This document shows, piece after piece, positions 24,976 to 34,533 of a DNA stretch of 64,000 nt. Position 1 is the stretch's first letter; every line of letters starts with the position of its first letter. Below the pieces are notes generated by a model. The model ran no database searches. It was not told where the DNA came from and saw only the letters and a program-made list of their open reading frames with translations. The DNA comes from Candidatus Arcticimaribacter forsetii (GTDB taxonomy: Bacteria; Bacteroidota; Bacteroidia; Flavobacteriales; Flavobacteriaceae), in the NCBI RefSeq assembly GCF_910589745.1, contig NZ_OU342399.1, positions 1,633,501 through 1,697,500 on the forward strand, given 5' to 3'. Position numbers and translations under genes: made by a program.

Positions 24976-25194
24976 TTACAAATCAAAGACAGATGTTCTT
25001 TTTGTGTAAATCATGTCTTTTAATTTAATCCAAAAAGCCAAAGTCAAATACAGTCCGAAAAAACCTCCGAATGTTGCAAATGAAGCATAAATAAAAAATA
25101 AACGTACATTTTTCACTTTCATCCCTAAGGTGTCAGCAAAGCGACTACTTACCTCAAACCCATGCCTTTCAAACCATTGTCTAATTTTGTCCAT
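24976..25194 (-). CDS. PspC-domain small membrane protein
   Basis: A 72-residue protein with an N-terminal PspC-like part (WFERHGFEVSSRFADTLGMKVKNVRLFFIYASF) and one or two hydrophobic stretches (about residues 31-57). The C-terminus is TKRTSVFDL. PspC-type proteins in E. coli take part in the phage-shock membrane-stress response. In flavobacteria the short form is found without pspA. Its start overlaps the 3' end of the DUF2851 gene by 14 bases, so it is in the same operon. Confidence 0.75.
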   Translation of the reverse strand: MDKIRQWFERHGFEVSSRFADTLGMKVKNVRLFFIYASFATFGGFFGLYLTLAFWIKLKDMIYTKRTSVFDL

Positions 25195-26472
25195 TTCTTT
25201 TTGTTGGAATTAATATGGAATATCCAACACTGCAATTTAAACATTTTTTTAGATCGCAGTAATTTGTTTTAAGTTCGATTAAACTTTGAGAATCTAATGC
25301 TGAATTTGCTATGATTTTTAATTTTTCGAAACCACTTACAATACTATTTTTCTCAGGATTTATTTTTTGTGCCCATTGAAACAACATTTCTGATGGAGCA
25401 GTACCTATGTGTTTTTCATAGGAGTATTTTAAAGGTATAATCGTATTTATTGTGAGTAATTCAAGAAAAGATTTGGATATTTTTTTATTTCTTTTCGCAG
25501 AATCTTTACCAAAAATATAATCTGATTTCCAATAATCAGAAACTCCAACATTTATAAATAAAGAGGTATTTAATTGATTACTATTTTGAATTAAGTTCGA
25601 AAACACCGCCTTGTTAACTGAATATAATTGCGCAAGTTGAGCCCATCGAATTGAGGGGAAGTTCCTAGGTCTTAATCGGTTAAATTGGATGATCGGAGGC
25701 TGAATATCACACAAACTATATTTTCTTTTTAAATAGGAATAGATCTGAGCCAATTGTTCATGATACTTATCCTTGTAAGGAGCAATAAGCATACCCGAAA
25801 GCCCCATAAAAAGTGCTTCTAGACTTTTGACTTCATTCCAGTTTTTTCGAATTACAGAAAAAGGAATCAGCTTTGCAACCTCCAAAAAAGAAGTTCCATT
25901 TATATTAAGACCAAAGTTCTTTGCAAGCAATACAAAACAAACTGCCTCCCAGTCGTTTTTAAATTCAACCAAAAGCTCTTGTATTAACAATGATTTTTTT
26001 CTATTCGTTGAATAAAAAGACGCTCCTTCCAATTAATCCAGATAGAAGAATCTACCTTGTGAATTTGTTTCTCGCAGGGAATCCAATTTTCGAATTGCAA
26101 AAACTGACTTTTGTATTTTTCTAAAAACAGCTTAGAAACTCTGGCAGAAAGCTCAAGTGTTGGAAGTTCAGTTCCTGATTCAGTTAAAACTGCAATATCG
26201 TGTTCCCAAACCACATGTAATATAACCGCATTATAATTCGGATCTTGATGGTGTCTATGAGCAAACCAATCCGAGGATTTTAAATGAATTTCAACATTAC
26301 CAACCCAGTCTAGATCATCGATTTTTAAACGTGCATCTGAAAAATCAGGACCAGCAAGCATGTTGTGAGTCCCTGTTTTAATCACCTGCAAATCATACCC
26401 TTGGGTAGTCTTCAGGTTGACTTGCAGAAACTTTTGATGCTTCCACAAAAAATGCAAAAAATCTTCTTTCAT
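25181..26472 (-). pseudogene. DUF2851 family protein, split by a one-base frameshift
   Basis: Two adjacent frames together form one DUF2851 protein. The first (ATG at 26472) encodes about 155 residues starting MKEDFLHFLWKHQKF and containing TGTHNMLAGPDFSDARL and GNVEIHLKSSDW. It ends at a stop just after an A run. The second (ending at 25181) continues with SLLIQELLVEFKNDWEAVC and includes the C-terminal CLNCSVG Cys pair. The frames meet at GAAAAAAATC (A7 at 26000-25994). Eight A residues would give a continuous protein of about 430 residues, the usual family length. DUF2851 has no established function. The break may be an assembly or sequencing error. Confidence 0.8.
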
Positions 26473-27958: not shown

Positions 27959-28042
27959 ATGAAAGCAAATAGACCAAAATGCGGATGTGGAAACACTCAA
28001 AATCCAGAAGGATTTTGTGACGGTTCTCACGCAAATAAATAA
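27959..28042 (+). CDS. Minimal CDGSH iron-sulfur protein (27 aa)
   Basis: A 27-residue frame from the ATG at 27959, five bases after yceI. It contains CGCGNTQNPEGFCDGSH, which carries the three cysteines (C8, C10, C20) and histidine (H24) that bind the [2Fe-2S] cluster in CDGSH (mitoNEET-like) domains. The C10-C20 gap is nine residues, one longer than the common spacing. Nothing more than the cluster-binding loop is present, far shorter than usual proteins with this motif. The exact ligand pattern makes chance unlikely. A role in redox or iron sensing together with YceI and MarR is inference. Confidence 0.7.
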   Translation: MKANRPKCGCGNTQNPEGFCDGSHANK

Positions 28043-28053
28043 TTTGTGATTTA

Positions 28054-28085
28054 TTGGATTAAAAATATTATTTCTACTATATTTG
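28054..28085 (+). promoter_or_regulatory. Promoter of the trp operon
   Basis: TTG (28054-28056), a 21-base spacer and TATATTTG (28078-28085) match the Bacteroidota promoter. Starts normally lie about 4-7 bases after this element, here about 28089-28092, at the ATG of the leader peptide. Confidence 0.65.
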
Positions 28086-28090
28086 ATCTA

Positions 28091-28132
28091 ATGAAACGAA
28101 TTACAAATTTTACAGCTTGGTGGAACGAATAA
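28091..28132 (+). CDS. trpL: trp operon leader peptide
   Basis: A 13-codon frame encoding MKRITNFTAWWNE with two adjacent Trp codons (28118-28123) and a TAA at 28130-28132. It lies between the trp promoter and an intrinsic terminator in front of trpE. It is the classical sensor of charged tRNA-Trp: a ribosome stalled at the Trp codons would cover RNA segment 1 and favour the antiterminator. The ATG is at or next to the predicted transcription start, so translation may be leaderless. No Shine-Dalgarno is present. The assignment rests on Trp codon pairing, position and matching RNA structures. Confidence 0.85.
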   Translation: MKRITNFTAWWNE

Positions 28133-28198
28133 CAAATCTATTCGTGATCAACGCTATTTATATATATCAAAGGCTTGTCATCACGACAAGCCTTTTTT
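28125..28198 (+). promoter_or_regulatory. trp transcription attenuator
   Basis: Three alternative pairings are visible. Pausing hairpin 1:2 is ACGAATA (28125-28131) with TATTCGT (28139-28145). Antiterminator 2:3 is TCGTGAT (28142-28148) with ATCACGA (28180-28186), extended by CAA with TTG (28175-28177) across a 2-base bulge. Terminator 3:4 is 28169-28179 with 28185-28195 (11 bp, loop ATCAC) followed by T residues to 28198. Segments 1 and 2 share bases with the leader stop region and with each other, and 2:3 is incompatible with 3:4. Confidence 0.85.
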
Positions 28199-28210
28199 AA
28201 TTTACGACCT

Positions 28211-29611
28211 ATGGAAACATTTAAACTACATTCTCAGCACAAAAAAATTCTGGCAGATACCCTGACTCCAGTTAGTGCATACCTTAAAGTAAGAGATGTT
28301 TTCCCTCATAGCTTACTTCTAGAGAGTAGTGATTACCATGCAAATAATAAGAACTTTTCTTATATCTGCTGTAATCCTATTGCTTCTATAGCGCTTAAAA
28401 ACAAAAAACTTACTATTAAATATCCCGATGGAACCTCTTCTTCGGAAATGCTTACAAGTAACTCTAACATACCCGAACGCATCCATACTTTTTCTCAACA
28501 GTTTAAAAGTGAAGACTATCCATTTAAATTTATTAGTAATGGTATTTTTGGTTACATTGCTCATGATGCGGTTGAGCATTTCGAAAATCTTGAATTAAAT
28601 ACTGAGAAGGAAGGTCTAGATATTCCTGAAATTTACTACGCGGTTTATCAAAACATAATCGCAATTAGTTTATTTAATCACGAAGCACATTTGTTTTCTC
28701 ATACCTATAATGGTGAACACAACATTGATCAAATAGAACAACTGCTTTATGCAAAAAACAGCACCTCCTTTTCATTTGAAAAAGTTGGAAAAAAAACATC
28801 CAATCTAACGGATGCTGATTTTATTGATTTTGTAAAAAAAGGAAAACAACATTGTTTTCGAGGTGATGTTTTTCAATTGGTTCTTTCTCGTCGTTTTTCG
28901 CAAAAATTCAAGGGAGATGAATTTAATGTTTACCGAACTTTACGCTCAATTAACCCATCACCTTATCTATTCTTTTTTGACTACGGAGACTTCAAAATTT
29001 TCGGAAGTTCTCCTGAAGCTCAAATAATAGTAGAAGAAGGAAAAGCAGAAATACATCCAATTGCAGGTACTTTTAAAAGAACAGGCAATGATGAACAAGA
29101 CAAGCAATCTGCTTTAGAACTAGCGAAGGACCCAAAAGAAAATAGCGAACATGTAATGTTGGTTGACTTAGCTAGAAATGATTTAAGCAGAAATGGCTCT
29201 GAGGTAGTAGTCGAAAAAAATAGAGAAATTCAGTTTTTTTCGCATGTAATCCATTTGGTCTCCAAAGTAACCTGTACCATGAAAAAAGCGGCTAAAACAT
29301 TTCAAGTGGTTGCAGACACCTTCCCTGCAGGTACTTTAAGTGGTGCTCCTAAACACAATGCGCTTAAATTAATCGATCGTTATGAAAAATCAAAACGTAA
29401 CTTCTATGGAGGCGCTATTGGATATATGGATTTTAAAGGGAATTTTAATCATGCGATTATTATTAGATCATTTCTATCAAAAAATCAAGAATTACATTAC
29501 CAAGCTGGAGCCGGAATAGTTGCAGATTCAGTTCCAGAAAATGAACTACAAGAAGTATATAATAAATTAGGGGCTTTAGACAAAGCCTTAACACTAGCCG
29601 AAGATATATAA
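28211..29611 (+). CDS. trpE: Anthranilate synthase component I
   Basis: Component I (466 residues) converts chorismate to anthranilate using ammonia from TrpG. The ATG at 28211 (METFKLHSQHKKIL) is used, since an in-frame upstream TTG at 28175 lies within the attenuator stem. The Trp feedback motif LLESS is near residue 35. The chorismate-binding domain has GDVFQLVLSRRF, IHPIAGTFKRTGND and the AGTLSGAPKHNALKLID segment near 375-395, with GGAIGYMDFKGNF following. It is the first structural gene of trpEGDCFBA and ends two bases before trpG. Confidence 0.96.
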   Translation: METFKLHSQHKKILADTLTPVSAYLKVRDVFPHSLLLESSDYHANNKNFSYICCNPIASIALKNKKLTIKYPDGTSSSEMLTSNSNIPERIHTFSQQFKSEDYPFKFISNGIFGYIAHDAVEHFENLELNTEKEGLDIPEIYYAVYQNIIAISLFNHEAHLFSHTYNGEHNIDQIEQLLYAKNSTSFSFEKVGKKTSNLTDADFIDFVKKGKQHCFRGDVFQLVLSRRFSQKFKGDEFNVYRTLRSINPSPYLFFFDYGDFKIFGSSPEAQIIVEEGKAEIHPIAGTFKRTGNDEQDKQSALELAKDPKENSEHVMLVDLARNDLSRNGSEVVVEKNREIQFFSHVIHLVSKVTCTMKKAAKTFQVVADTFPAGTLSGAPKHNALKLIDRYEKSKRNFYGGAIGYMDFKGNFNHAIIIRSFLSKNQELHYQAGAGIVADSVPENELQEVYNKLGALDKALTLAEDI

Positions 29612-29613
29612 AT

Positions 29614-30177
29614 ATGAAAAGGATTTTTCTCATTGATAATTATGATTCTTTCACCTATAATTTGGTGCACTATTTAGAAGAATTAGACTGTGAAGTAACG
29701 GTTAAAAGAAACGACCAGTTTAACCTAGACGAACTAGAAGGTTTCGAACATATTGTCCTTTCCCCTGGCCCTGGAATTCCAGAAGAGTCCGGGTTATTAA
29801 AAGCTGCAATTGAGCGGTATGCTCCAACCAAAAAAATCTTAGGGGTTTGCCTAGGGCAACAAGCAATTGCGGAGGTATTTGGAGCAGAACTAATTAATCT
29901 TGACAAAGTATATCACGGTGTTGCAACTCCAATAAATATTGTAAAAGAAGATGTTATTTTTGAGGGACTTCCTAAGACCTTTGAAGTAGGACGATACCAC
30001 TCTTGGGTAGTTAAAACTCCACTCCCAGACCAACTTATAGCTACTTCTTTCGATGATGAAGGTCAATTAATGTCTTTACGTCACAAAGAATATAATGTAT
30101 GTGCAGTTCAATACCACCCAGAATCTGTGCTAACACCTCAAGGAAAAAAAATTATTGAAAACTGGATTAATTCATAA
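29614..30177 (+). CDS. trpG: Anthranilate synthase glutamine amidotransferase component
   Basis: A 187-residue class I glutamine amidotransferase supplying ammonia to TrpE. The catalytic Cys79 is in GVCLGQQAIAE, and His168 and Glu170 are in VQYHPESV. The N-terminal IDNYDSFTYNLVHYL is characteristic of TrpG/PabA. In some bacteria the same protein also serves folate synthesis. The trp operon location favours anthranilate synthase. Confidence 0.96.
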   Translation: MKRIFLIDNYDSFTYNLVHYLEELDCEVTVKRNDQFNLDELEGFEHIVLSPGPGIPEESGLLKAAIERYAPTKKILGVCLGQQAIAEVFGAELINLDKVYHGVATPINIVKEDVIFEGLPKTFEVGRYHSWVVKTPLPDQLIATSFDDEGQLMSLRHKEYNVCAVQYHPESVLTPQGKKIIENWINS

Positions 30178-30179
30178 CT

Positions 30180-31172
30180 ATGAAAACCATACTCAACCGT
30201 TTAATTCGTCACGAGCAACTATCCAAGGATGAAGCTCGTCAAATGATCATAAACATTGCAGACGGGAAATATAATAGTAGTCAGATTGCTTCTTTCCTAA
30301 CGGTGTACATGATGCGAAGCATTAGTCTAGAGGAACTTGAAGGCTTCAGAACGGCTCTTCTAGAACTCTGTATTGCTATTGATTTAAACGAATTCGAAAC
30401 CATTGACTTATGTGGTACTGGAGGAGATGAAAAAGATACCTTTAACATTTCCACACTTTCTTCTTTTGTTACTGCTGGAGCAGGTATAAAAGTTGCCAAA
30501 CACGGAAACTATGGCGTTTCTTCGGGCTGTGGATCTAGTAATGTATTAGAACATTTGGGCATCCGTTTTTCAAACGAAGAAGACTTTTTGAAACGTTGCA
30601 TCGATCAAGCAGGAATCTGTATTTTACACGCTCCTCTTTTTCATCCAGCCATGAAAAATGTTGCTCCTGTACGAAGAGATTTAGGAGTTAAAACATTCTT
30701 CAATATGCTCGGCCCGTTGGTAAATCCATCGTTTCCTAAAAACCAATTGACCGGGGTTTTCAATTTAGAACTTGCCCGTTTATATCACTATTTATTCCAA
30801 AAAACAGATCAAAACACAACCGTTCTTTATGACTTAAAAGGCTACGATGAAATTTCGCTAACTGGGACTACAAAAGCACTAAGCAGAAACAGTGAACGTA
30901 TTCTTACACCAGCAGATTTTGGAGTACAACCACTAGACGCTTCAGAAATCTCAGGGGGATCAAACGTAAATTCATCCGCAGAAATTTTTATGAATGTTAT
31001 TCAAAACAAAGGAACCCAAGCGCAACAAAATGTTGTTTGTGCAAACGCTGGAATGGCCATTGCAACTGCCTTGGATTTGTCTCCAATTGAAGGCTTCGAA
31101 AAAGCAAAAGAATCCCTTTCAAACGGAAATGCCCACAAAGCCCTTACAACACTTCAAAACCTAAGCAAGTAA
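30180..31172 (+). CDS. trpD: Anthranilate phosphoribosyltransferase
   Basis: A 330-residue enzyme joining anthranilate to PRPP. The PRPP-binding motif CGTGGDEKDTFNIST is near residues 79-93, and the anthranilate region includes KHGNYGVSSGCGSSNVLEHLG and HPAMKNVAPVRRDLGVKTFFNMLGPL. It is a separate gene rather than a TrpG fusion. Its TAA overlaps the trpC ATG by one base (TAATG), which favours coupled translation. Confidence 0.96.
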   Translation: MKTILNRLIRHEQLSKDEARQMIINIADGKYNSSQIASFLTVYMMRSISLEELEGFRTALLELCIAIDLNEFETIDLCGTGGDEKDTFNISTLSSFVTAGAGIKVAKHGNYGVSSGCGSSNVLEHLGIRFSNEEDFLKRCIDQAGICILHAPLFHPAMKNVAPVRRDLGVKTFFNMLGPLVNPSFPKNQLTGVFNLELARLYHYLFQKTDQNTTVLYDLKGYDEISLTGTTKALSRNSERILTPADFGVQPLDASEISGGSNVNSSAEIFMNVIQNKGTQAQQNVVCANAGMAIATALDLSPIEGFEKAKESLSNGNAHKALTTLQNLSK

Positions 31173-31963
31173 TGACCATTTTAGATAAAATAATTGCAGA
31201 TAAAAAAGTTGAAGTTGCACTTCGTAAGCAACTATTCCCGTTTGCTTATTGGGAAGCTTCTCCTATTTTTGAAAGAGAAACTATTTCCTTGACTCAAAAT
31301 CTACGCAACAGTTCTTCAGGAATTATTGCGGAACACAAAAGACGTTCTCCTTCTAAACAAAACATAAACAGTTCCCTTTCGGTTCTTGATGTAGCCAAAG
31401 GATATGAAGATGCAGGCGTGTGTGGAATGTCAGTTTTAACTGATGGTAAATATTTTGGAGGAGCACTAGAAGATTTAAACATAGCCCGAGCAGTTACCGA
31501 TTTCCCTTTACTTAGAAAAGAATTTATAATCGATGAATATCAACTTATTGAAGCAAAAGCCCATGGAGCTGATGTAATCTTACTTATTGCTTCGGTATTG
31601 ACAAGGGAAGAGATTAAACAGCTGTCTACTGCTGCTAAAAGCTTAGGACTCGAAGTACTACTTGAAGTTCACAATCTCGCAGAACTAGAAAAGTCGATCA
31701 TGCCATCATTGGATCTTTTGGGGGTTAACAACCGAAACCTTAAAACCTTTGAAGTTGATCTACATACCAGTAAAACTCTTGCTGAAAAAATACCTGATGA
31801 TTTTGTAAAAATATCAGAAAGTGGAATAAGCAATTCAGCTGCTATTATAGATCTAAAAAAATATGGTTTTGAAGGATTCTTAGTTGGTGAAAATTTCATG
31901 AAAACTCAAAATCCGGGTGCGAGTGCAGCGGCATTCATTAAAGAAATCGAAGATGAAGCTTAA
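31172..31963 (+). CDS. trpC: Indole-3-glycerol phosphate synthase
   Basis: A 263-residue TIM-barrel enzyme that closes the indole ring. IIAEHKRRSPSKQNIN near 48-63 contains the catalytic Glu and Lys. VLTDGKYFGGALEDL, LRKEFIIDEYQLIEAKAHGADVILLI and LGVNNRNLKTFEVDL are further family marks. It is monofunctional, as trpF is a separate gene that starts inside its last 11 bases. Confidence 0.96.
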   Translation: MTILDKIIADKKVEVALRKQLFPFAYWEASPIFERETISLTQNLRNSSSGIIAEHKRRSPSKQNINSSLSVLDVAKGYEDAGVCGMSVLTDGKYFGGALEDLNIARAVTDFPLLRKEFIIDEYQLIEAKAHGADVILLIASVLTREEIKQLSTAAKSLGLEVLLEVHNLAELEKSIMPSLDLLGVNNRNLKTFEVDLHTSKTLAEKIPDDFVKISESGISNSAAIIDLKKYGFEGFLVGENFMKTQNPGASAAAFIKEIEDEA

Positions 31964-32570
31964 AGTTTGTGGTATGCGACTCCCCGAAAACATCAAAGCA
32001 CTTACTGCTTTGAACCCAGATTACATGGGATTTATTTTTTGGGCTCCTTCTTCTAGATTTGTCGATAGCTCGACTCCACCGCTATCAAAAGAAATTAAGA
32101 AAACAGGTGTTTTTGTTGATGCTTCTCTCGATTATATAGAAACCATAATTAAGGATCATAACCTACAAGCTGTTCAACTTCATGGAAAAGAAAATCCAGA
32201 ATATTGTAGTTATATAAAAAACTTAGATGTAGAAGTAATCAAAGCATTTAGTGTAAAAGATCATTTTGATTTCTCGAGTTTAGATCCGTATGAATCTGCC
32301 TGTGATTTTTACTTATTTGATACGAAAGGAGAACTCCCTGGAGGAAATGGTTATGGTTTTGACTGGAGTATTTTAAAACATTATCCATCGAAAAAACCAT
32401 TCTTTCTGAGCGGCGGAATTGGTCTGGAAGAAGTAAAACAAATATTAGAATTAAAAAAAATAGATTTACCACTTTATGCAATCGATGTAAATAGTAAATT
32501 TGAAATCGCTCCCGGAGTAAAGAAAATAGATGAATTAGAACAATTTAAAAACGAATTGTATGAACTATAA
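31953..32570 (+). CDS. trpF: Phosphoribosylanthranilate isomerase
   Basis: A 205-residue TIM-barrel isomerase. The start at 31953 ([14 protein letters not shown]) is chosen because the catalytic Cys is at position 6 as usual. A longer frame from 31917 would only add trpC-overlapping residues. The catalytic Asp is in [19 protein letters not shown] near 125. The 3' phosphate-binding loop is [13 protein letters not shown]. It overlaps trpC by 11 bases and trpB by 11 bases. Confidence 0.95.
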
Positions 32571-33741
32571 TGTAGATGAAAGAGGATATTACGGAGATTT
32601 TGGAGGTGCATTCATCCCCGAAATGTTATATCCAAATGTAGCTGAACTAAAAGAGAATTATCTCAAAATTACAGCAGAGCCAGAATTCAAAAAAGAATTC
32701 GACGCACTTTTAAAAAGTTACGTAGGGAGACCAACCCCACTCTACTTTGCTAAGCGTTTATCTGAAAAATACAACACAAAAATTTACCTGAAAAGAGAAG
32801 ATTTGTGTCATACGGGAGCGCACAAAGTAAATAACACCATCGGCCAGATATTACTAGCAAAACGCTTAGGAAAGAATCGAATCATTGCCGAAACAGGAGC
32901 TGGACAACACGGAGTAGCAACTGCAACAGTATGCGCTTTAATGGGAATTGAATGTATTGTATATATGGGAGCGCTAGACATTAAACGTCAAGCTCCAAAC
33001 GTTGCCCGTATGAAAATGTTAGGTGCTGAAGTGCGACCAGCAATGTCAGGGAGTAGAACCCTAAAAGACGCAACCAACGAAGCCATTCGTGATTGGATCA
33101 ACAACCCTGTTGACACACACTATATCATTGGATCGGTTGTAGGTCCTCATCCCTACCCAGATATGGTAGCGCGATTCCAATCGGTTATTAGCGAAGAAAT
33201 AAAAACACAACTTCTAGAATTAGAAGGTCGCGACTATCCAGATCATGTAATTGCTTGTGTAGGAGGGGGAAGTAACGCTGCTGGATTATACTACCATTAC
33301 CTCAACGACGAACGTGTAAATATCATAGCAGTAGAAGCAGCTGGAAAAGGTATTGATACTGGCGAAAGCGCAGCTACCTCTGTTCTTGGGAAAGAAGGAA
33401 TCATCCATGGTAGTAAAACACTGTTGATGCAAACACCAGACGGACAAATCACAGAACCCTACTCCATTTCTGCTGGGCTAGATTACCCAGGAGTTGGACC
33501 TATGCATGCCCACCTTTTCAGAACTAAACGTGCTGAATTTGTTTCCGTGCCTGATCAAGAAGCAATGGACTGGGGGCTTACACTTTCTCAAATGGAAGGG
33601 ATTATTCCAGCCATAGAAACAGCTCACGCCTTTGCAGCTCTTGATGTTCGTAAATTTAAACCCAATGAAGTTGTTGTGTTTAACTGTTCGGGACGTGGCG
33701 ACAAAGATTTAGAAACCTACATCGATTATTTTAAGTTGTAA
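32560..33741 (+). CDS. trpB: Tryptophan synthase beta chain
   Basis: A 393-residue PLP enzyme condensing indole with serine. Lys89 in [10 protein letters not shown] forms the PLP Schiff base. [33 protein letters not shown] (near 112-130) and the phosphate loop VGGGSNAAG (near 230) are typical. Length fits TrpB1. The start overlaps the trpF stop. It forms a tunnelled complex with TrpA. Confidence 0.97.
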
Positions 33742-33765
33742 AAACAACAACCAAGATTTTAGAAC

Positions 33766-34533
33766 ATGAAACAAAATAGAATTGACCTCAAATTTCAAGA
33801 AGACAAAAAACTATTGTCCATCTATTTTTCTGCTGGTTTTCCCAACCTAGAAGATACTGTACCTATTTTAAAAAACCTACAAGCTGCTGGTGTAGATATG
33901 GTCGAAATTGGACTTCCTTTTTCTGATCCCCTTGCCGATGGTCCTACTATTCAAGAAAGCTCTACCCGCGCGCTTGAAAACGGTATGAGCACCCATAAGC
34001 TATTCGAACAACTTCAAGGAATTCGTGATCATATTGACATTCCATTGGTTCTTATGGGATACTTCAATCCGATGATGCAATTTGGTATTGAAAAATTCTG
34101 CCAACAATGTGAAGCCATTGGAATTGATGGCCTTATCATTCCAGATCTTCCAGTTGACGTATACAACGAACAGTACAAAAGTCTGTTTGATAAACATGGA
34201 TTGTATAATATGTTTTTGATTACACCGCAAACTCCTGAAGAACGTATCCGATATATCGACGAGGTCTCAAACGGATTCATTTACATGGTTTCAAGTGCTG
34301 CGGTCACCGGTGCGCAAAGTTCTTTTGGAGCTACACAAGCAGACTACTTCAAGCGTATTGCAAACATGAACCTTAAAACGGAAACCGTAGTTGGTTTTGG
34401 AATAAGTAATGCTGACACCTACCAAGCGGCAATTACCCATTCTCGTGGTGCAATTATTGGTTCTGCCTTTATTAAATTCCTAGAAAAAGAAGGGGTTGAA
34501 AGTATCAAAGATTTTATAGCTGCCATCAGATAA
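33766..34533 (+). CDS. trpA: Tryptophan synthase alpha chain
   Basis: A 255-residue TIM-barrel lyase that releases indole for TrpB. Catalytic Glu47 and Asp58 lie in MVEIGLPFSDPLADGPTIQ. The flexible loop and phosphate-binding parts are SSAAVTGAQSSF near 180 and VVGFGISNADT near 208. It is the last gene of the operon. After it comes an AT-rich 129-base gap with only a weak stem (34554-34574) as possible terminator. Confidence 0.96.
   Translation: MKQNRIDLKFQEDKKLLSIYFSAGFPNLEDTVPILKNLQAAGVDMVEIGLPFSDPLADGPTIQESSTRALENGMSTHKLFEQLQGIRDHIDIPLVLMGYFNPMMQFGIEKFCQQCEAIGIDGLIIPDLPVDVYNEQYKSLFDKHGLYNMFLITPQTPEERIRYIDEVSNGFIYMVSSAAVTGAQSSFGATQADYFKRIANMNLKTETVVGFGISNADTYQAAITHSRGAIIGSAFIKFLEKEGVESIKDFIAAIR

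Follow-up and report, generated by a model that had tools for sequence, protein, structure and literature searches.

Transcription attenuation is the textbook example of coupled transcription and translation, and was worked out in enteric bacteria, whose mRNAs carry Shine-Dalgarno sites. The Bacteroidota are a host group largely without such sites, with a promoter consensus of TTTG/TANNTTTG at -33/-7 (PMC6847099). A leader family of these bacteria, Bacteroid-trp (RF01692), was published in 2010 (PMC2864571, Table 1) and has been noted before the trp operon of F. psychrophilum (PMC6414381), and leader-peptide attenuation has been inferred for amino-acid operons of that species in a study that lists 64 structured leaders (PMC9723704).

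The locus described here lies in a 64,000 nucleotide stretch of contig NZ_OU342399.1 of Candidatus Arcticimaribacter forsetii, referred to throughout as the window; the genome is 2.03 Mb. Of the sequences fetched, those closest in TrpE come from an uncultured Flavobacteriaceae bacterium (93%) and from Candidatus Arcticimaribacter sp. UBA7428 (91%). A complete trpEGDCFBA operon was identified by Pfam on the forward strand, which also carries every leader feature given below: trpE, encoding anthranilate synthase component I, at 28211-29611 (PF04715, PF00425), and trpG, trpD, trpC, trpF, trpB and trpA at 29614-34533 (PF00117, PF00591, PF00218, PF00697, PF00291 and PF00290, together with ORF order). 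The leader region, 28043-28210, is the interval between trpE and a 27-codon ORF (MKANRPKCGCGNTQNPEGFCDGSHANK, 27959-28042; no Pfam match at E 0.001), which looks CDGSH-like by eye. Further upstream, on the minus strand at 25181-26472, two overlapping ORFs in different frames match positions 1-156 and 156-375 of PF11013 (DUF2851), and represent a single gene divided by a frameshift or by an error in sequencing.

The leader itself begins with a weak -33-like TTG (28054-28056), 21 nt upstream of a -7 box of the Bacteroidota housekeeping promoter, TATATTTG (28078-28085), followed by a 13-codon ORF, MKRITNFTAWWNE (28091-28132; ATG at 28091, TAA at 28130-28132), with tandem Trp control codons, UGG UGG, at 28118-28123 that are conserved in relatives. 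Segment 1, the protector 5' arm (ACGAATA, 28125-28131), includes the UA of the stop codon and pairs with TATTCGT at 28139-28145, the first part of segment 2 (28139-28155). The antiterminator pairs TCGTGAT (28142-28148) with ATCACGA (28180-28186), the terminator loop plus the first two 3'-arm bases, and CAA (28149-28151) with TTG (28175-28177); in the stalled-transcript fold GCT (28153-28155) also pairs with GGC (28172-28174). Folding and terminator finding place the terminator hairpin at 28169-28195, with a 5' arm AAAGGCTTGTC (28169-28179) paired to a 3' arm GACAAGCCTTT (28185-28195), and a T-run at 28193-28198. The first-pass annotation had described the frame, the three pairings and the T-run terminator before trpE, and each of its coordinates is exact in the sequence. 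RNA folding, which it had suggested as a check, agreed: the minimum free energy (MFE) of the 110-nt leader is -27.3 kcal/mol, against -13.6 +/- 3.0 in dinucleotide shuffles (z -4.5; 0/200 as stable), and this fold contains the 1:2 pairing.

The same annotation suggested that this leader had no described family in Flavobacteriia, which was mistaken. At the Rfam gathering cut-off no leader family is found in the window, and the idea of an undescribed family was abandoned after a permissive search, in which RF01692 gave the best match, with the lowest E-value of the 12 listed (28071-28179; 46.3 bits against a cut-off of 49; E 7.4e-5; model positions 1-131 of 131 aligned). The alignment holds 14 non-standard positions and the helix of the model differs from the three-way switch. 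The cut-off was reached by 19/20 mostly WWW-type Flavobacteriaceae loci (the miss being L036), and by L007 alone among 20 loci made up of the 19 nearest TrpE relatives and L007 itself, a short contig labelled Algoriphagus that carries a Flavobacteriaceae-type trpE and leader and is possibly misbinned. Loci above the cut-off share with the window the place before trpE, the tandem-Trp leader, the core and the terminator, and are homologous to it. The window leader is a divergent, unannotated member of the family, and the termination half of its switch is absent from the RF01692 model.

Comparison of trpE upstream regions was carried out on two sets of loci. For the first, the window and 80 TrpE relatives, ORFs were sought within 600 nt upstream of trpE, and an in-frame tandem-Trp ORF was found in 80/81, the sole miss (L008) having 34 nt of contig upstream. 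A leader position 224-534 nt upstream of trpE is seen in seven loci, five of Salegentibacter and two of Muricauda. Many relatives carry three Trp codons and end in a motif like NNLRQTS, and the nearest relatives of the window mostly have two Trp codons. E. coli trpL ends in WWRTS and the majority flavobacterial leader reads WWWNNLRQTS, each before the stop codon, which is probably coincidence. As TGGTGG was the search condition for this set and for alignment A1, the invariance of the Trp codons in A1 proves nothing. The second set was obtained with a model, R2, built on the RNA behind the Trp codons and holding no Trp codons. At E<=1e-3, R2 matches 185/199 genomes of Flavobacteriaceae, close to one genome for each genus, a count to be read as a maximum given false matches with E as low as 1.6e-7 (L380, in another family); 16 of the 185 have E above 1e-5. 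A tandem-Trp leader stands before trpE in 57/60 fetched R2 loci, hand-picked from the matches listed (E 1.5e-10 to 8.4e-7) and including three shared with set 1 (L249=L001, L263=L038, L270=L016). The misses are L236 (no WW within 420 nt), L288 (no TrpE found) and L277, at a contig end with TGGTGGTGG at the very edge. The terminator was detected automatically in 73/80 leaders; in six of the other seven the hairpin is visible in the printed sequence (with one mismatch in L024), and in L037 it is masked. Four of the 80, with N or a masked terminator, were left out of the alignment, fold and family covariation counts, giving n=76. Across the family, the stem and loop of the terminator show unusually little variation.

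What is conserved at the 3' side of the Trp codons is a distance. CGTGA is recognisable in 73/80 leaders, and in these the TCGTGA core begins 17-21 nt after the last Trp codon. The stop codon can fall anywhere between -13 and +8 counted from where the core begins, and in 48/73 it is the core's own TGA. It is thus the stall-to-core spacing that is conserved, and not the end of the peptide. The core is complementary to TCACGA, which covers the terminator loop and two bases at the start of the 3' arm, and with a stalled ribosome and a transcript cut before the terminator closes, the MFE fold pairs core with loop in 74/76, most folds extending into the 5' arm. An antiterminator that binds the terminator loop alone was thus discarded, as folding of the stalled transcript shows part of the 5' arm to be taken too.

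In the majority form the protector pairs CTTACG with CGTGAG, and 99.4% of 156 cells are paired (26 sequences), with 5 cells changed on both sides (0/500 shuffles for either measure), although 4/6 pairs never vary and the two-sided changes all fall at one pair. The peptide ending LRQTS is therefore explained by the RNA. Segment 1 differs among the near relatives of the window, yet mostly folds onto the core (by eye). In the terminator, two-sided change occurs in 3/11 pairs (2/500 shuffles), and for the core, which hardly varies, no covariation beyond shuffles was found inside the family. MAFFT misplaced the core in part of alignment A2, which was excluded from the counts.

Outside the family the core changes sequence. 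A model trained on Trp leaders alone, R1, gave 20 matches that were inspected: 15 are Trp leaders (14 outside Flavobacteriaceae) before trpE, trpD or trpB, two are Lys leaders and three are false, TrpD or TrpB being assigned by Pfam for L126, L124, L125 and L135 and the other neighbouring genes by eye. A class-wide, TrpE-anchored sample, in which 29 of 39 matches were examined, has a tandem-Trp leader in 18/29 loci, 16 of them outside the family. The 11/29 loci without one are L180 and L190, near a contig end, L198, with trpE inside the operon, L174, which reads Trp-Cys-Trp by eye, and seven plain misses. Core partners found by eye outside the family are CGTGAACT with AGTTCATG (L133), GTCGTGAG with CTTACGAC (L124) and TGAACAG with CTGTTCA (L173). 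The binding of segment 2 to its own terminator apex averages -9.26 kcal/mol, against -6.55 for other apexes (0/20000 permutations), in 19 sequences that remained when a first run on 22 was repeated without three hand-picked family variants. This test omits the near-duplicates L127-L130 and L187, as well as L195, in which the terminator was miscalled, and putting omitted sequences back (24 and 25 sequences) again gave 0/20000 each; nine leaders in which automatic terminator finding failed (L024, L066, L245, L182, L186, L192, L194, L124 and L139) lie outside it. Taken singly, the own apex ranks first in 7/22 leaders and 12th, 13th and 18th in L193, L196 and L183, and segment 2 beats shuffled segment 2 at z below -1.6 in 14/22. 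Through changed sequences the match of core and apex is kept on average, and not in every leader. The apical window is bound more strongly than the 5' arm in 14/22, so some leaders use mainly the 5' arm, as does E. coli.

The outcome that the first-pass annotation had named as counter-evidence, Trp codons or stems unconserved in relatives, was looked for and did not occur. Its reading of a complete attenuator of the enterobacterial type stands as regards conservation, pairing and position, and gives way in part as regards geometry: the conserved antiterminator core takes the terminator loop and the top of the 3' arm besides part of the 5' arm, the stop codon here lies inside segment 1, and translation of the leader probably takes place on a leaderless mRNA.

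With a short tandem-Trp ORF before trpE, and competing protector, antiterminator and terminator pairings seen in both folding and comparison, the element is very probably a ribosome-mediated transcription attenuator of the trp operon and a divergent member of Bacteroid-trp. The sequences and their conservation, together with the folds and the pattern of compensatory change, suggest a response to Trp that would run as follows. Transcription would start at, or one base before, the leader AUG, and a ribosome would trail RNA polymerase through MKRITNFTAWWNE. Were charged Trp-tRNA scarce, the ribosome would wait at the UGG codons and cover segment 1, leaving segment 2 free to pair with the emerging part of the terminator 5' arm, the loop and the top of the 3' arm; this antiterminator would delay the hairpin and polymerase would continue into trpE. 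With Trp plentiful, the ribosome would reach the stop codon and leave, segment 1 would take segment 2, the hairpin would form and transcription would end within the T-run.

In stepwise folding with a stalled ribosome the antiterminator is preferred up to 28191 and the terminator from 28192; with no ribosome the terminator prevails as early as 28188, segment 2 being by then occupied by segment 1. In the full-length RNA with the ribosome stalled the terminator is still the more stable (-17.1 vs -9.8 kcal/mol), and in the E. coli trpL control the fold likewise turns to the terminator once 6 of 7 arm bases are out. As the terminator wins near completion of its arm in both, antitermination would have to be kinetic in both, and since E. 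coli trpL folds alike, kinetic control is no objection to reading the element as an attenuator. The ribosome footprint in these folds, +13, is an assumption; under it, a ribosome at the stop codon of the window leader leaves 6/7 core pairs free, so that termination at ample Trp would have to rest on release of the ribosome and re-forming of the 1:2 pairing.

The start of the leader mRNA can be predicted from the promoter. Probable promoters of F. johnsoniae have 4 or 5 nt between the -7 element and the start (PMC6847099), and for F. psychrophilum a box at -12 to -5 is described, with 5.5% of mRNAs leaderless (PMC9723704). In the window 5 nt separate the end of the box from the leader AUG, and by the F. 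johnsoniae spacing the predicted start falls at 28090-28091, giving a 5' UTR of 0-1 nt. A box stands 4-6 nt before the leader start in 55/78 leaders of set 1, in which the box-adjacent start was chosen among alternatives, favouring short gaps (L019 and L022 have GTG starts), and a gap of 4-5 nt is found in 13/57 leaders of set 2, in which the farthest in-frame ATG was mostly taken, favouring long gaps. Among the near relatives L001-L025 it is 4-6 nt in 23/23 with enough DNA (L007 and L008 lack it). Given a box at 4-6 nt, we predict a leaderless leader mRNA in the window's clade, one that would not be universal in the family. There is a precedent in S. meliloti trpL, which also has a leaderless leader (PMC7298713).

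That precedent raises the possibility that the main role of the element is in trans, the terminated RNA or the peptide acting on other transcripts as do rnTrpL and peTrpL of S. meliloti; like rnTrpL, the short RNA predicted here would be the leaderless mRNA of a leader peptide (PMC7298713), and the terminator is very conserved, but past the Trp codons the peptide is not the same from clade to clade, and RNA pairing accounts for such conservation as it shows. We consider a main role of this kind very unlikely; action in trans could nevertheless exist as an added role beside attenuation.

A version with Lys control codons matches the same RNA chassis. R1 also matches two genomes of another family of the order (E 2.3e-10 and 1.3e-9). 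The leader there is MILSNLKKAKKQNLRRTS or MILSNLKKGKKQYLRPMS, and the gene behind it encodes an aspartokinase-type protein (PF00696 with ACT domains). The last Lys codon lies 18 nt before TCGTGA, like the last Trp codon in the majority form. When 393 genomes of the order were searched, R2 at E<=1e-5 matched 10 genomes of this other family, and 7/7 inspected have a Lys leader before an aspartokinase-type gene. A Lys leader before such a gene (MYQIKTNKVKKQYLRPTS) is also present in one genome of Flavobacteriaceae, for which TrpE gave no match at E<=1e-30. The trpE loci of the other family, 7/7 examined, have a separate WWW leader with another hairpin, and R2 also matches all of these seven genomes but G012. 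No Rfam match at E 0.05 was obtained for L320-L322, which are Lys-leader loci, or for L316, a trpE locus. A pattern written for the chassis matched 33/296 genomes, once each, against one match for the backward control. From its codons and the gene behind it, the Lys version presumably senses Lys, and from sequence similarity we infer that the chassis has passed between operons. A broader proposal, to which we would give an even chance, is that Bacteroidota have a modular, often leaderless attenuator, in which the actuator (protector arm, TCGTGA core and terminator with a TCACGA apex) is reused and the control codons are swapped, the trp switch having moved to an aspartokinase-type gene and turned from Trp sensor into Lys sensor.

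Several candidate matches were rejected. Plain terminators account for L114, which R1 had matched as a second site in the genome of the window, for matches in three further families (L380-L382) and for the second matches L384 and L385; within one set of 20 loci only L291 and L292, both Lys leaders, are real, the other 18 being, by eye, plain terminators or cases with the leader on the opposite strand. Some unrelated genes (L296 in G839, and others) end in a near-identical terminator, GGCTTGTCTCACGACAAGCC, and the hairpin alone thus does not mark a leader. Such terminators, and a stem and loop as invariant as would be expected of a binding site, are what could be said for reading the hairpin as a simple terminator, or as an RNA to which a protein or Trp binds, with an incidental Trp-rich peptide. 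This reading is scarcely credible when tandem Trp codons are present in 57/60 loci that were selected by the RNA lying behind those codons, the distance from Trp codon to core is held in 73/80, the protector arm changes sequence yet mostly keeps its pairing, and codons and gene change together in the Lys version.

The genome of the window contains further leader ORFs, all on contig C1. Near 1189200, upstream of hisG, a His-rich ORF (MIKTNLHTHHHTSDSSEI) stands behind a TATATTTG box and is followed by a G+C-rich hairpin and a T-run; near 1715800, upstream of pheA (prephenate dehydratase), there is a Phe-rich ORF (MNTTTTYFNRFFFFFYPEDNRAL) and a hairpin (AAGTCCTGATTTATTCAGGACTTTTTTTTT). These are likely His and Phe attenuators, respectively, and neither gave an Rfam match at E 0.05. 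A third, MNNKINILLTENTLNTLMLSTAPNFNSTTVTTTP, lies near 1028250 upstream of an aspartokinase-homoserine dehydrogenase gene (PF00696, PF00742), 4 nt behind a TATTTTTG box; it has a Thr-rich end, no T-run was seen directly after its hairpin, and it is a possible Thr leader.

As the family is already catalogued, the value of these results rests in the anatomy and in the Lys version, not in the existence of the element. Comparison separates the parts that are held (the distance from stall to core, the core and the terminator) from those that drift (the stop codon and the peptide end), and the change from Trp to Lys control codons amounts to a natural swap experiment. It appears that bacteria with few Shine-Dalgarno sites and another promoter code use the same logic of attenuation, on RNAs that often begin at the AUG or beside it. 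A literature search over the main texts of mostly open-access papers yielded nothing on the Lys version or on a leaderless Bacteroid-trp.

Of the known systems, S. meliloti trpL/rnTrpL shares with the window a leaderless leader ORF before trpE(G) under attenuation (PMC7298713); it is alphaproteobacterial, and is likened to the window here by its description. The E. coli trpL leader (RF00513) has the same tandem Trp codons, three alternative pairings, logic and stepwise folding, whereas in the window the core includes the loop and the top of the 3' arm, the stop codon lies in segment 1 and a box stands 5 nt before the AUG. No RF00513 match to the window was listed at E up to 10; the E. coli control was found at 93.1 bits, and L133, from another family, matches weakly (31.9 bits; cut-off 41). 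RF01692 shares the place before trp genes in Bacteroidota, the Trp-codon leader and the GGCUUGUC arm, but its model ends at the terminator 5' arm, without the loop, the 3' arm or the T-run, and has another helix. The pairing of core with terminator, the spacing of box and leader, the Lys version and the His-, Phe- and Thr-rich leader ORFs in the same genome are what this study adds.
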